Positions 2,366 to 31,210 of a DNA stretch of 35,777 nt are shown here, piece by piece (within the stretch, counting starts at the first letter, position 1; every line of letters starts with the position of its first letter). The DNA is from a virus. The stretch lies in IMG/VR virus record IMGVR_UViG_3300042691_026724, positions 1-35,777 of that record; one strand, written 5' to 3'. Under the pieces are notes generated by a model. That model had not been told where the DNA came from. It worked only from the letters and a program-made list of their open reading frames with translations, and made no database searches. The position numbers were made by a program, and so were the translations under genes.

Positions 2366-2385
2366 TTTAAAGAGGTAAATAAACA

Positions 2386-5034
2386 ATGAGTTGGTTTAGT
2401 AAAACAATAGGGAAAAATCCTTTAGCTGTAATCTCGCCCGTTTTTGCAGCAACGTCCGGACTTTTAGGCGGAAAAAAGAGCGGTGGATTTACTCCGACTC
2501 AAACTGAGTTATTAAATCCATTTGAGCAAGAACAAGCTAAACAACTCTATGAGCAAACTCAAAGTGCATACAATCAACAACAAGCTTTTGTGAATGCTCT
2601 TGCTCAGCAAAATGCTCTTGCTAATCAAGCTAACGTTTTTAGACAACTTCAAGATGTAGCAAGTGGTGTGGGACCGAATCCCGCTTTAGCAGCGTTACAA
2701 CAAGCGACTGGGGAAAACATAGCTGGACAAGCTGCTCTTATGGCAGGTCAAAGAGGTGCAGGTCGAAACGTTGGCCTTTTGGCTCGTCAAGCAGGAATGC
2801 AAGGCGGAGCACTTCAACAACAAGCTGCGGGACAAGGCGCAACAATGCAAGCTCAACAACAACTTGCAGCTCTTGGTCAACTTGGAGGACTTGCAAATCA
2901 ACAAGTAGCGCAACAACAAGCTGGCTTAGGCGCTCTTGGACAAATGGGATTATCTGGGCAGCAAAATATATTACAAGCTTTAGCTCAGCAAAATGCTGCT
3001 CGTTTAAATCAGCAAAATGCAATTAATCAAATAAATGCTCAAATGGCTGCAGAAAGAGCAAGGTCAGAACAAGCTATGTTAGGTGGTGCTCTTGGTGCTA
3101 TTGGAACTATTGCAGGAACAGCTTTTGGCGGACCTGTAGGTGGAGCAATAGGCGGAAATATAGCTAATGTAGCTGCACCTAAATTTGATTCTTATAAATT
3201 CGGTCAGTATTCTTTTGCCAAGGGCGGTGAGGTTAAAAAGCCTCAATATGCTGACGGCGAATTAGCAGGAATTCAACCTCAAAGTTTTATTGGTCAATAC
3301 TTTCAAAATCCTAATCAAGCTTTAAACGCAATTAATCAGTCTGATAACTTAAAAGATTCTCAATTAGATTACTCAACACTAAACGACGGTGGTGCAGTTA
3401 ACCGTGATGGCATGTACGCAAAAGGCGGCATGGCACCTATGTCACTTATGGATCAAGGTGGAAAAGTACCCGGTAAAGCAGCGGTAGCAGGCGACAGTTA
3501 TAAAAACGATATTGTAGACGCTAAACTATCACCCGGAGAAATTGTAATTCCTCGAAGTATTGTAAATCATCCAAATGCTCCTGAAATGGCAGCTCAATTT
3601 GTTCGAGACACATTGTCTAAGAAAAAGGGCTATGCAGATGGCGGTGAAGTAAAAGACGACTTAATTTATCTAGGTGATCCTAAACAATCTCAATATATTC
3701 CTGATGTTTTTGAAGAAACTAAACCTACAAAAGAATTTGTTCCTTTTAAAGAACCTGAATTAAAAAAAGAAGTTAAACCAGTCAGCACACAAACTGGAAT
3801 AGATATTTCTAAAACTCAACCAAGTATTTCTGAAAGAACACCTACGGCAATACAAGAAAAATTACAAGAACCAGTTCAATTAGAACAAGTCTCTCCCGTA
3901 GCTCGTGGTTTTGAAGCAGAAAAGCAAGCTTATTTAGAATCTGGAAAATTAGCCGAACAACAAGCACGTGAGCAAGAAATAAAATATGAAAAAAGCTTTA
4001 AAGAATTAGAAGCTCAGCAATTAAGATATAACTATGAAATTAAAGAAATTAATAATGAATTAAACAATGTTCGATCAGACATTATGCAAAGTAAAATTGA
4101 TCCTCAAAGATTTATTTCTAACATGTCTACGGGAAATAAAATTGGAACTGCTATCGGTTTAATTCTTGGCGGTATTGGGTCAGGATTAACAGGCGGTGAA
4201 AACGTAGTTTTAAAGCAATTAAATAATTACATTGAACAAGATTTGTTTGCGCAAAAAGCAGAGCTTGGAAAAAAAGAAAATTTACTTTCTGCTCTCACAC
4301 AAAAATACGGAAACGTTAATCAAGCAATGCAAGCTGCAAGAATAATGATAGGCGATTCTATTTCTTTACAAATGAAACGAGTCGCAAGTAAATATGCGGG
4401 CAAAATTGAACAACAAAGACTAAATGCTGTTATAGCTGGTTTAGATGATGATACTGCTTATAAAATTGACAATTTTGCAAAACAAAGAATGAATACCCCT
4501 GAAAGCGGATTAATAGAATCAGAATTTGATCCTCGAAGAACTGAAAGAGTTGATGTTGGAAATGAGCCTTTATATGCAGGCAGCGAAGCAGAAGCAAAAG
4601 AGGCTAAAGAAAAGCTTTATCAAATAAATCTTGCCGAACAAGCTGTTGCTGATATGGAAAACTTAAGAGCACAATTTGGAGGTAAGGAAAGAGCGGCCAA
4701 AATTGCAGCTGGTCTAACTTATGGTCTTAAAGATACTGAATATGAGAAAAAAGGTGAAAGATTAAAATCAAAATTAGCAGCTGCGTTTGCACCTATATAT
4801 TTTAATAAACCAACAAAAATTACAGAAGAAGAGCGTGAAGAAGTTAAAAATTTAATGCCAGATCCCTTTAGATTATTTGAAGGTGAATATCTTAACGCAT
4901 TAAATTCTATTAAAAACACAATAAATCAAAGAAAAAACTTGTTAAAAAAATGTCTATATTTAACGCAGACAAGAAAAAAATCTAAAGAATCTAAAGAAAT
5001 TTTCTTAAAAAAACCAGAAGTATTGGAAGAATAA
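2386..5034 (+). CDS. Internal virion / DNA ejection protein (882 aa) with Gln/Ala-rich coiled region
   Basis: Preceded by AGAGGTAAATAAACAATG. The first 60 residues contain a hydrophobic Ala/Gly stretch. Residues about 60-230 are extremely Gln/Ala rich and heptad-like, as in the ejection proteins that short-tailed phages extrude from the capsid to form a trans-envelope conduit. A glycine-rich hydrophobic segment (AIGTIAGTAFGGPVGGAIGG, near 240) and a second one (IGTAIGLILGGIGSGLTGG, near 590) could insert in membrane. Between them are several copies of a [YF]-A-x-GG-E-V type motif (FAKGGEV, YAKGGMA, YADGGEV). The C-terminal third is charged and helical. It sits with the following 1137-aa gene between tail hub and accessory genes. 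No enzymatic motif was recognised. The assignment is by size, composition and context. Confidence 0.6.
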   Translation: MSWFSKTIGKNPLAVISPVFAATSGLLGGKKSGGFTPTQTELLNPFEQEQAKQLYEQTQSAYNQQQAFVNALAQQNALANQANVFRQLQDVASGVGPNPALAALQQATGENIAGQAALMAGQRGAGRNVGLLARQAGMQGGALQQQAAGQGATMQAQQQLAALGQLGGLANQQVAQQQAGLGALGQMGLSGQQNILQALAQQNAARLNQQNAINQINAQMAAERARSEQAMLGGALGAIGTIAGTAFGGPVGGAIGGNIANVAAPKFDSYKFGQYSFAKGGEVKKPQYADGELAGIQPQSFIGQYFQNPNQALNAINQSDNLKDSQLDYSTLNDGGAVNRDGMYAKGGMAPMSLMDQGGKVPGKAAVAGDSYKNDIVDAKLSPGEIVIPRSIVNHPNAPEMAAQFVRDTLSKKKGYADGGEVKDDLIYLGDPKQSQYIPDVFEETKPTKEFVPFKEPELKKEVKPVSTQTGIDISKTQPSISERTPTAIQEKLQEPVQLEQVSPVARGFEAEKQAYLESGKLAEQQAREQEIKYEKSFKELEAQQLRYNYEIKEINNELNNVRSDIMQSKIDPQRFISNMSTGNKIGTAIGLILGGIGSGLTGGENVVLKQLNNYIEQDLFAQKAELGKKENLLSALTQKYGNVNQAMQAARIMIGDSISLQMKRVASKYAGKIEQQRLNAVIAGLDDDTAYKIDNFAKQRMNTPESGLIESEFDPRRTERVDVGNEPLYAGSEAEAKEAKEKLYQINLAEQAVADMENLRAQFGGKERAAKIAAGLTYGLKDTEYEKKGERLKSKLAAAFAPIYFNKPTKITEEEREEVKNLMPDPFRLFEGEYLNALNSIKNTINQRKNLLKKCLYLTQTRKKSKESKEIFLKKPEVLEE

Positions 5035-10810: not shown

Positions 10811-10886
10811 TGGCTCCCAGAGTAGGACTTGAACCTACGACCTAATCGTTAACAGCGATTTGCACTACCGACTGTGCTATCTGGGA
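10811..10886 (-). tRNA. tRNA-Asn (anticodon GUU), CCA encoded
   Basis: On the minus strand the sequence folds as a full cloverleaf: acceptor TCCCAGA with TCTGGGA, D-arm GCAC/GTGC with a GTCGGTA-type loop, anticodon stem AATCG/CGATT with loop CTGTTAA (anticodon GTT, Asn), T-arm GTAGG/CCTAC with TTCAAGT, discriminator G and encoded CCA. It overlaps the 3' end of the HNH gene on the same strand by 45 nt, so the HNH stop codon falls in the anticodon stem. Confidence 0.95.
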
Positions 10887-11282
10887 ATTGCGTTTCTTTC
10901 TTCTACCAGTTTTCCATCGCCATTCATTAACTTTTTTTACCGCTTCGGTTCTGCAAACATTACATCTGCATCCTTTTTTATAAAGAGAAACTCCGTGTTG
11001 TCCGCAATCTAAATCAACATATGTTTTCTTTTGATGGCAACTTCTGCATAAAATTTGGCATTTTTTTAATTCTTTTTTTCTTTTTTTTTCGCTTAATCCC
11101 CAAATAGCGGAAGATTTAACCGTTTGTTTATTTGTGTTTATTCTTGCAACTATGTGATCTATTTGAAGATTTTCATTGGACCCACAATTAGCACAAGGTC
11201 CATTTTCTAAAATGTATTGAGTTCTTCTTTTTTTATACAATTCGTTTTGATATTGGCGTCTTTTTTCACCGTAATAAGCCAT
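10842..11282 (-). CDS. HNH endonuclease, free-standing, 3' end overlaps tRNA-Asn
   Basis: The 146-residue product has a zinc-HNH core: Cys30 and Cys33 (CANC), Asp42-His43 (QIDHIVAR), then Cys79, Cys82 and His83 (CRSCH). A second Cys cluster (CRCNVCR, residues 105-111) heads a basic C-terminal tail, a layout common in phage free-standing HNH nucleases. Such genes are often mobile. Whether this one assists the capsid-gene introns or cuts elsewhere is unknown. The last 15 codons are read through the tRNA-Asn sequence and the stop lies within it. The start ATG lacks a visible ribosome site, and a hairpin plus T8 on the minus strand sits only a few bases upstream, which may limit expression. Confidence 0.8.
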   Translation of the reverse strand: MAYYGEKRRQYQNELYKKRRTQYILENGPCANCGSNENLQIDHIVARINTNKQTVKSSAIWGLSEKKRKKELKKCQILCRSCHQKKTYVDLDCGQHGVSLYKKGCRCNVCRTEAVKKVNEWRWKTGRRKKRNSQIAQSVVQIAVND

Positions 11283-29284: not shown

Positions 29285-31210
29285 ATGGCTGTTTATGCAA
29301 ACGTATCGAACCAGGTAGCTGCACTCAAAGAGTTGTACACTGGTGACGATTATTTAAAAGATCTTGTTTATAAGAAAAATCCTTAAAGATAGGGTCGTTG
29401 CATAGAAATATGTAAACGAGAATTCTCTCTGATTGACTTGGAAGTCCGGAAGCGGACAACAGGGGCCAAGGGTAAAGCTAGGCTGAACGACTAAGTGAGA
29501 GAACATCCCACAGGGATGATGCGATAGTCTGAACAACCCTATAACAAAAGAAGGGGTTGAGGGAGATCCGAAGAGATCGCCCCCATCAAAAGATGAGTAA
29601 CAAAATGTTTCTTGCACTTGTTCCAAAGGATGAAAGTCCTTCTGGTTTTGCTGGTAAGTACATTCCCGTACCTATCATTTATGGCACAGGCCAAGGTCGA
29701 TCTCACACTTTTTCAAATGCGCAAAACCAACAAACTGCACCCGCAGACGTTGCGTTCTTCGTATACAGAATTAGTGACTATCAACTCGTAACCATCACCA
29801 ACGAACTTCTTGAAGCGACAAAAGATAATGCTGGCGCTTTCATTGACCAAGCTAAACTCAACTTGGACACAGGTTTTAGAAACATTTCTAACAACTTGGC
29901 TCAAAACTTGTTTGCTTCTGGAACTGGATCACGCGGTCAAATCGGAAGCATTGTTAAGTCTGGAAGTTCAACTGCTACAACCATCACTTTGATTAACTCT
30001 GCGCAAGTTGTGCAATTTGAAGTTGGTATGTTGCTTGTTGTTTCTGCGACTGACGGAAGCGCACCTTCATCTGATACAGTTCAATTAACTGCGGTTAACC
30101 GCTCAACTGGCGTATTGACTGGTGTTTCTTCTACCACTCTTGCAAGTTCACTCTCTGCTAACTGGGCAGCTAACGGCTACCTCTATGTTAACGGAGATAT
30201 CGGGGCTTCTGGAGCTTCTGGAACAGGCAGCTACTTGGCTGTTTCTGGTCTTGCAGCTTGGCTCCCGTTGACTGCTCCTTCTTCTGGAGATTCTTTCTGG
30301 AACGTTGACCGATCAGTAGATCCTACTCGTTTGGGTGGTGTTCGTTTTGACGGATCAAGTGAAACAATCGAAGAAGCCCTCATAGACGCTAAACTTTGTG
30401 GCGTCTTTAAACTTTCTCTAATTGACTTGGAAACCGGACACGGCAACAAGGCGCAAGCGATTGTTATCGCAGCGTGAACGACTAAGTGAGAAAGCCCTTT
30501 AATTAGGGATGCGATAGTCTGAACTCGGAATATAGAAAGAAAATCCGAGAGAGAGATCCGAAGAGGTTTCTCCCGCTAGAAATAGCGAGTAACAAATTGG
30601 CAGCATTAGTAGCTCGAGAAGGTGGACAACCCGACATGTGCTTCACAAACTTTGCATCATATGCAGCGCTTGTGAAAGCTCTTGGATCAAAAGTACAATA
30701 CGTACAAGTTAAGCATGACGAATGTGAAATCGGCTGGGCTGGTATCACTATCCATGCAGCATACGGTCCAATCACTGTTATCCCTGATCGCAACTGTCCT
30801 GCTCAAGTAGCGTACTTGCTTTCTATGGATACATGGAAATTCCGTTCACTTGGAAAAGCTCCTCACATCTTGACCTACGGTCTTGAAGGTTTGGAAGGTA
30901 TCCGTGTTGGAAATGCAGACGCTAAATTTTGTGGCGTCTTTAAACTTTCTCTAATTGACTTGGAAGCCCGACAGGGTAACAGGGCGCAAGCGTAATTGCA
31001 GCGTGAACGACTAAGTGAGAAAGCCCTTTAATTGGGGATGCGATAGTCTGAACTCGGAATATAGAAAGAAAATCCGAGAGAGAAATCCGAAGAGGTTTCT
31101 CCCGCTAGAAATAGCGAGTAACAAAATTGCTCGAAATTCGTATCGGTTACTACGGCAACTTGATATGTAACGCACCAGGCTGGAACTGTGTTGTTCAATT
31201 ATCTCAATAA
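29285..31210 (+). CDS. Major capsid protein, spliced gene of four exons (428 aa)
   Basis: Exons: 29285-29383 (33 codons), 29608-30390 (261), 30600-30923 (108) and 31130-31210 (26 plus stop). Every exon boundary falls between codons. Joined, the protein runs ...DLVYKKNP | FLALVPKDESPSGFAGKYIP ... EEALIDA | AALVAREGG ... GIRVGNADA | LEIRIGYYGNLICNAPGW...VVQLSQ. The NPFLALVPK block across junction 1 is a family signature, and the EALIDA and NADA ends join sensibly. GNISNNLAQNLFASG-like text (NISNNLAQNLFASGTGSRGQ) and YGPITVIPDRNCP belong to the HK97-fold capsid family. Without splicing, exon 1 would stop after 33 codons and the gene would appear as fragments. A purine-rich AAGTAGGT precedes the ATG. 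Splice sites are inferred from intron structure and protein continuity. Confidence 0.9.
29384..29607 (+). ncRNA. Group I intron 1 in the major capsid gene (224 nt, no ORF)
   Basis: Core elements are visible: P3 TTCTCTC (29423) with GAGAGAA (29497), P7 GACTA (29489) with TAGTC (29525), P8 CATCCC (29504) with GGGATG (29513), P9 AACCC (29535) with GGGTT (29554) and a further hairpin GATC/GATC. The P5 hairpin GTCCG-GAAG-CGGAC and a CTTGG/CCAAG pair lie between. The 5' splice site follows U29383 (exon end CCU), which can pair with GGG at 29392-29394 and gives the expected terminal U-G, though this P1 is short. The 3' end is G29607. No endonuclease ORF is present. It differs from introns 2 and 3, sharing only the core. 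Confidence 0.9.
30391..30599 (+). ncRNA. Group I intron 2 in the major capsid gene (209 nt, no ORF)
   Basis: P1 is excellent: exon end AGACGCU pairs with the intron guide GGCGUCU (30400-30406) over seven pairs ending in the required U-G at the splice site. P3 is CTTTCTC (30412) with GAGAAAG (30488); P7 is GACTA (30480) with TAGTC (30515); P8 is CCCT (30495) with AGGG (30505); P9 is CTCGGA with TCCGAG. The terminal G is 30599. It is nearly identical to intron 3 apart from about a dozen changes, mostly in the P5-P6 region. No ORF. Confidence 0.94.
30924..31129 (+). ncRNA. Group I intron 3 in the major capsid gene (206 nt, no ORF)
   Basis: A copy of intron 2 with the same guide GGCGUCU, pairing with exon end AGACGCU at 30917-30923. 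The P8 change A to G (AGGG to GGGG) keeps pairing as U-G, and differences cluster in the peripheral P5-P6 region, so the fold is preserved. P3, P7 and P9 are intact. The terminal G is 31129. Exon 4 begins CTCGAAATT. The identical guide and target sites point to copying by reverse splicing or ectopic insertion. Confidence 0.94.

Follow-up and report, generated by a model that had tools for sequence, protein, structure and literature searches.

What becomes of a gene that carries two almost identical group I introns, each with the same guide and each preceded by the same exon end? The initial annotation of the capsid gene considered here proposed that such a pair could allow the exon between the introns to be skipped in frame, as a regulated second product or simply as a cost of the duplication. 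On the analysis presented below it would seem likely that the gene is interrupted by three introns of one family, that the second of these was copied within the lineage and that any skipping would be a by-product.

The interrupted capsid gene

The window analysed is a whole IMG/VR virus record, a metagenome-type virus contig of 35,777 bases. Two genes downstream of a portal-like gene lies the gene at 29285-31210. It is interrupted by three insertions, computed excision of which gives a single frame of 428 codons (Table 1). The fold was modelled on an intron-less homologue (L005, mean pLDDT 73). This model superposes on 7f38 with a Z-score of 17.4 and on 1ohg (HK97) with a Z-score of 14.2 over 200 residues, and the best E-value in Foldseek was 4e-8; the modelled fold identifies the product as an HK97-fold major capsid protein. 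Standard ORF calling (29557-30995) splits the gene into pieces of 306 and 132 amino acids that continue into intron sequence.

A scan of viral contigs yielded 129 stretches that encode relatives of the capsid protein, of which 80 were fetched for comparison, and most of these are uninterrupted. The nearest are L004, with 98% identity in protein, and L010, with 97%, the latter beginning at residue 96. Neither is interrupted where introns 2 and 3 lie in the window, which fixes the junctions of these two introns. No relative of the capsid protein was found in the protein search of INPHARED and no relative in genome_contigs, and the DNA search of INPHARED gave only partial matches to the intron core. 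L004 is without introns 1-3 and has two other insertions (2375-3000 and 3109-3379, after residues 20 and 54), the first of which resembles an endonuclease VII/HNH gene. Elsewhere in the window a tRNA gene (10814-10886, minus strand) overlaps the 3′ end of an ORF for an HNH endonuclease on the same strand (10842-11282).

Table 1. Exons, predicted introns and putative guide elements of the capsid gene, in window coordinates.
Feature	Position	Strand	Basis
Exon 1 of major capsid protein gene, 33 codons	29285..29383	+	spliced protein matches uninterrupted relatives
Intron 1, predicted group I, 224 nt	29384..29607	+	model R1, 167.9 bits; Rfam Intron_gpI 20.7 bits, sub-gathering
Exon 2, 783 nt	29608..30390	+	splice computation and uninterrupted relatives
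Guide target AGACGCT, end of exon 2	30384..30390	+	sequence search, P1 pairing
Intron 2, predicted group I, 209 nt	30391..30599	+	covariance model, 165.5 bits; site empty in covering relatives
Guide (IGS) GGCGTCT of intron 2	30400..30406	+	P1 pairing
Exon 3, 324 nt, residues 295-402	30600..30923	+	splice computation, L005 model
Guide target AGACGCT, end of exon 3	30917..30923	+	sequence search, P1 pairing
Intron 3, predicted group I, 206 nt	30924..31129	+	covariance model, 170.2 bits; relatives, tree
Guide (IGS) GGCGTCT of intron 3	30933..30939	+	P1 pairing
Exon 4 including stop codon	31130..31210	+	splice computation, comparison with L010 and L004

Three introns of a compact family

The three insertions are predicted to be group I self-splicing introns of a single phage intron family. 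They have the conserved core helices P3-P9 and end in G (29607, 30599 and 31129), and in introns 2 and 3 the P1 helix has a U.G pair at the splice site. All three are compact and ORF-less, carrying no endonuclease gene. Intron 1 has 73% core identity with the other two and so is of the same family, yet it is not their closest relative. An exact 17-base piece of the core recurs in no fewer than 119 further stretches of viral contigs. In an alignment of 55 sequences, the window introns included, 28 of the 37 predicted pairs have compensated changes, so the family is not a chance pattern. Covariation spans P3, P4-P6, P8, P9 and P9.1, with compensated changes in P3, P5, P6, P8, P9 and P9.1; the P7 strands, GACTA and TAGTC, are complementary but invariant, and P7 is read from the sequence alone. 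The scores of 165-170 bits for the window introns come from a covariance model trained on 55 members that include all three of them; independent support for the family is given by the covariation and by matches of the model in L077 and L203, neither of which is in the alignment.

At the gathering level of Rfam no intron was found in the window. With RF00028 and E-values up to 1, intron 1 alone matched, with the score in Table 1 against a gathering score of 50, which is a database threshold and not a defining feature of group I chemistry. The introns of phage Twort score 64-101 bits with the same model. The general Rfam model is insensitive to the compact intron family of this capsid gene.

For intron 1, the P1 at the junction implied by the relatives is weak (CCU with AGGG, no clean U.G). 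At 12 nt upstream a P1 of 10 bp with a U.G would be possible, TCTTGTTTAT with GTAAACGAGA (29360-29425); this choice would delete KKNP, in frame.

Introns 2 and 3 share guide and target

The initial annotation described introns 2 and 3 as near-identical and as sharing the guide GGCGUCU, which would match AGACGCU at the ends of exons 2 and 3. Both observations hold. The alignment gave 93% identity (10 substitutions and two indels, of 4 nt and 1 nt), and in each intron the predicted P1 pairs AGACGCU with GGCGUCU over 7 pairs, with the U.G at the splice site. With its target counted, the feature annotated at 30391-31129 would begin at 30384. Calculated P1 energies are alike for own and crossed pairs in all four combinations (-10.2/-10.3 kcal/mol). 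The P3 and P7 strands are identical between the two introns, while differences in two other helices keep the pairing: in P8, as had been pointed out, an A to G change in the 3′ strand turns U-A into U.G, and in P5 the inner pair is compensated (CCG..CGG vs CCC..GGG). The loop of P1 differs, AAACUUUGU in intron 2 vs AAAUUUUGU in intron 3, and with this change the P10 that could form with exon 4 grows from 4 to 7 pairs in intron 3, where the loop before the guide (AATTTTG) can make the 7-bp helix. The longer possible P10 suggests an adaptation of intron 3 to the exon that follows it.

As the source is a metagenome-type virus contig, the second copy might be thought to derive from a misassembled repeat. 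However, the copies differ at 10 positions and by two indels and have a compensated change in P5, each lies exactly at a matching target, and the frame is otherwise intact and 97-98% identical to that of the relatives; an assembly artefact is extremely unlikely.

In addition to the two targets, AGACGTT at position 243 of the window CDS (about 29752) matches the guide of introns 2 and 3 in full, with one extra G.U, and is a possible cryptic splice or insertion site.

Origin of the pair

The DNA shared between the two sites extends from the 7-nt target upstream of each intron through the last intron base, and outside it there is no similarity. The view that the 3′ exon flanks are unrelated and that the duplicated unit is the intron itself is thus borne out, as the copy is exactly the target plus the intron. 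The tree groups introns 2 and 3 as sisters (support 0.87), with the intron of L203 next to them (0.88) and deeper branches unsupported. The identity between introns 2 and 3 is 0.93, while any other compared intron has at most 0.87 to either.

By examining the relatives we found no intron at site 2 in any that covers it (about 80 capsid genes, including the two that are 97-98% identical). Pattern scans for capsid-gene introns gave four chance matches without capsid similarity for site 2 and only L203 for site 3. A related intron near site 3 is present in only two relatives. In L203, whose capsid gene has 62% identity, it lies 1 nt downstream of the site and has the guide GTGCATC for the target GATGCAT; in L073 it lies four codons downstream. 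Unrelated introns at both sites in relatives would have spoken against recent copying; what is found is an empty site 2 and a related intron beside site 3. In this phage group the capsid gene is a hot spot for introns, as the sequences of L004, L203 and L077 show. In the closest relatives 5-7 of the 7 target bases are present at the empty sites. At site 2, exact AGACGCT occurs in none of 80 relatives and GACGCT in nine, L004 among them (CGACGCT), whereas at site 3 AGACGCT occurs in two, including L010.

Copying of the intron inside this lineage is well supported by these comparisons. Intron 2 is probably the newer copy, derived from intron 3 or a close ancestor, and the simplest history would have an intron resident near site 3 and a more recent copy at site 2; the direction is probable mainly on account of L203, with its intron 1 nt away and its different guide. 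As to the route, the initial annotation favoured reverse splicing into a second site with the same 7-nt target. This remains the best fit to the exact boundaries and the kept guide, and we infer from these an RNA intermediate: the excised RNA would most likely have been reverse-spliced into the second guide-matching site and then fixed in the DNA. The need for each guide to pair with the end of its own 5′ exon would have kept the guide the same in both introns. Amongst neighbouring intron pairs of the family with placeable guides only introns 2 and 3 share one. At L183:6886-7524 two neighbouring introns have 91% core identity and the guides GCCCAGT and GCGCATC; copies elsewhere therefore do change guides.

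The two introns could instead have entered separately, from an outside donor such as a co-infecting phage, or by DNA recombination at 7-nt microhomology. The guide GGCGTCT does recur outside the window, in 59 or more viral contig stretches and almost always at a single site in another gene; related introns also occur in the capsid genes of other phages (L203 and L073). Nevertheless, no compared intron is closer to either member of the pair than they are to each other, no other contig was found with this guide together with the same P3 pattern, and introns 1-3 are without an endonuclease gene. Separate entry is rather unlikely on this evidence, and we retain copying within the lineage. In L205-L262 the GGCGTCT sites lie nearly all after the NQDA codons of one other gene.

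Could exon 3 be skipped?

Normal splicing would join exons 1-4 and give the 428-residue HK97-fold protein predicted from the sequence. After the copying the two splice sites would remain chemically interchangeable, and in a small share of transcripts exon 2 could be joined to exon 4, either by docking of exon 2 in intron 3 or through a hybrid whose 5′ portion comes from intron 2 and whose 3′ portion comes from intron 3. Such a hybrid ribozyme is possible because the P3 and P7 strands are identical. Exon 3 is exactly 324 nt in length, as annotated, so that skipping would lead in frame to 320 amino acids instead of 428.

That the 5′ site of intron 2 could be used with the 3′ site of intron 3 is chemically possible and has a precedent in phage Twort, but local folding strongly favours the own P1 of each intron. 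In the folded precursor the probability of the own P1 is 0.97 and that of the crossed P1 about 0, in a calculation that describes the equilibrium and ignores the kinetics of splicing. The shared guide may allow joining of exon 2 to exon 4, though the rate may be negligible, as the crossed P1 is near zero and the natural skipped exons reported in Twort and Coxiella are far shorter. Exon 3, if released with its AGACGCU end, may likewise react with the 3′ splice site of intron 2 to close into a circle of 324 nt, the frame of which would be without a stop. The exon 3 circle may be a natural form of the permuted intron-exon arrangement.

The main consequence of the duplication could lie in the DNA rather than in the RNA, with direct repeats of 0.2 kb recombining so that exon 3 and one intron are deleted, and the pair being unstable and short-lived. 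Copies that are 93% identical, lie 529-533 nt apart and share up to 49 identical nucleotides in a row would favour this, as would the fact that no relative has kept such a pair. On the other hand, the 10 substitutions since copying imply that the pair has lasted a while, and a genome with the deletion was not seen among about 80 relatives, as expected if the deletion were lethal. We consider instability of the DNA unlikely to be the main consequence, and return to skipping in the RNA.

A probable by-product rather than a second product

Exon 3, which codes for 108 residues, includes the stretch of highest confidence in the capsid model and holds more than 20 invariant columns. The modelled fold makes it most likely that the 320-residue protein is non-functional, since without this part the capsid fold would be unlikely to form. 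The in-frame length of the exon was considered as a sign of function and rejected. Sites that match at least 6 of the 7 guide pairs were counted in the spliced gene, and 14 of the 17 end at a codon boundary, so the length is no evidence for use. Both targets finish on the codons GAC GCT, and codon-shuffled capsid genes have a mean of 2 full guide matches.

Regulated alternative splicing would turn the in-frame exon and the shared guide to use, with skipping giving a functional 320-residue capsid variant, for example a minor shell form or one that controls assembly. High levels of skipping have a parallel in SIOphi, where 47.2% of polymerase transcripts are reported as skipped (PMC11878797). 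However, the part removed is the core of the HK97 fold with its invariant columns, intron-less relatives encode the long form only, and an in-frame length is to be expected from the codon-boundary positions of target-like sites. Of the two options offered at the outset we therefore set aside the regulated second product, which we hold to be very improbable, and prefer the cost of the duplication. Skipping would be a by-product and not a regulated switch, because the short protein is without the core of the capsid fold. It is similarly hard to credit a useful second output in which a stable capsid-related protein of 320 residues would be made alongside a 324-nt circle of exon 3 RNA.

Comparison with known systems

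The closest parallel is orf142 of Staphylococcus phage Twort, for which exon skipping has been reported (Landthaler and Shub 1999, as cited in PMC10136302 and PMC11878797). Reading the Twort sequence (AY954970), we found that introns 2 and 3 of orf142 share the guide GTGC and a 5′ exon end AGCAT. As in the window, three group I introns lie in one structural gene, the last two being similar and sharing guide and target. The Twort introns are, however, 75% identical to each other rather than 93%, and belong to subgroup IA2, whereas those of the window form another, compact family. The exon between them is 23 nt, so that its skipping shifts the frame, in contrast to the 324 nt and preserved frame of the major capsid gene.

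In the Bacillus phage SIOphi, skipping occurs between group I introns in the polymerase and terminase genes, according to PMC11878797. Here too an internal exon of a phage gene lies between group I introns, and in SIOphi it is skipped in part of the transcripts; the genes differ, the window having its introns in a capsid gene. Exon skipping between two group I introns is also cited for the 23S rRNA of Coxiella burnetii in PMC10136302, which gives the natural skipped exons as 23 nt in Twort and 34 nt in Coxiella. The Coxiella introns are of different subgroups and interrupt an rRNA, while the window pair is of one family and in a protein gene. The same paper describes identical tandem Tetrahymena introns in E. 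coli, where both products were formed and differing splice-site sequences suppressed skipping; this construct is artificial, with a 24-nt exon and the Tetrahymena intron.

Implications

Tandem introns whose guides are interchangeable would have, in this capsid gene, a second natural example; the gene is unrelated to the first and the introns are of another family, and close intron-less relatives define the junctions and point to a likely sequence of events. The copying of the intron is thereby opened to direct tests, as is the question of how often skipping occurs between ribozymes that have one guide in common. Introns of this family are common among uncultured phages, though below the Rfam threshold. 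Compact introns occur in the capsid genes of such phages and escape the standard threshold, so that these genes are likely mis-annotated as fragments.
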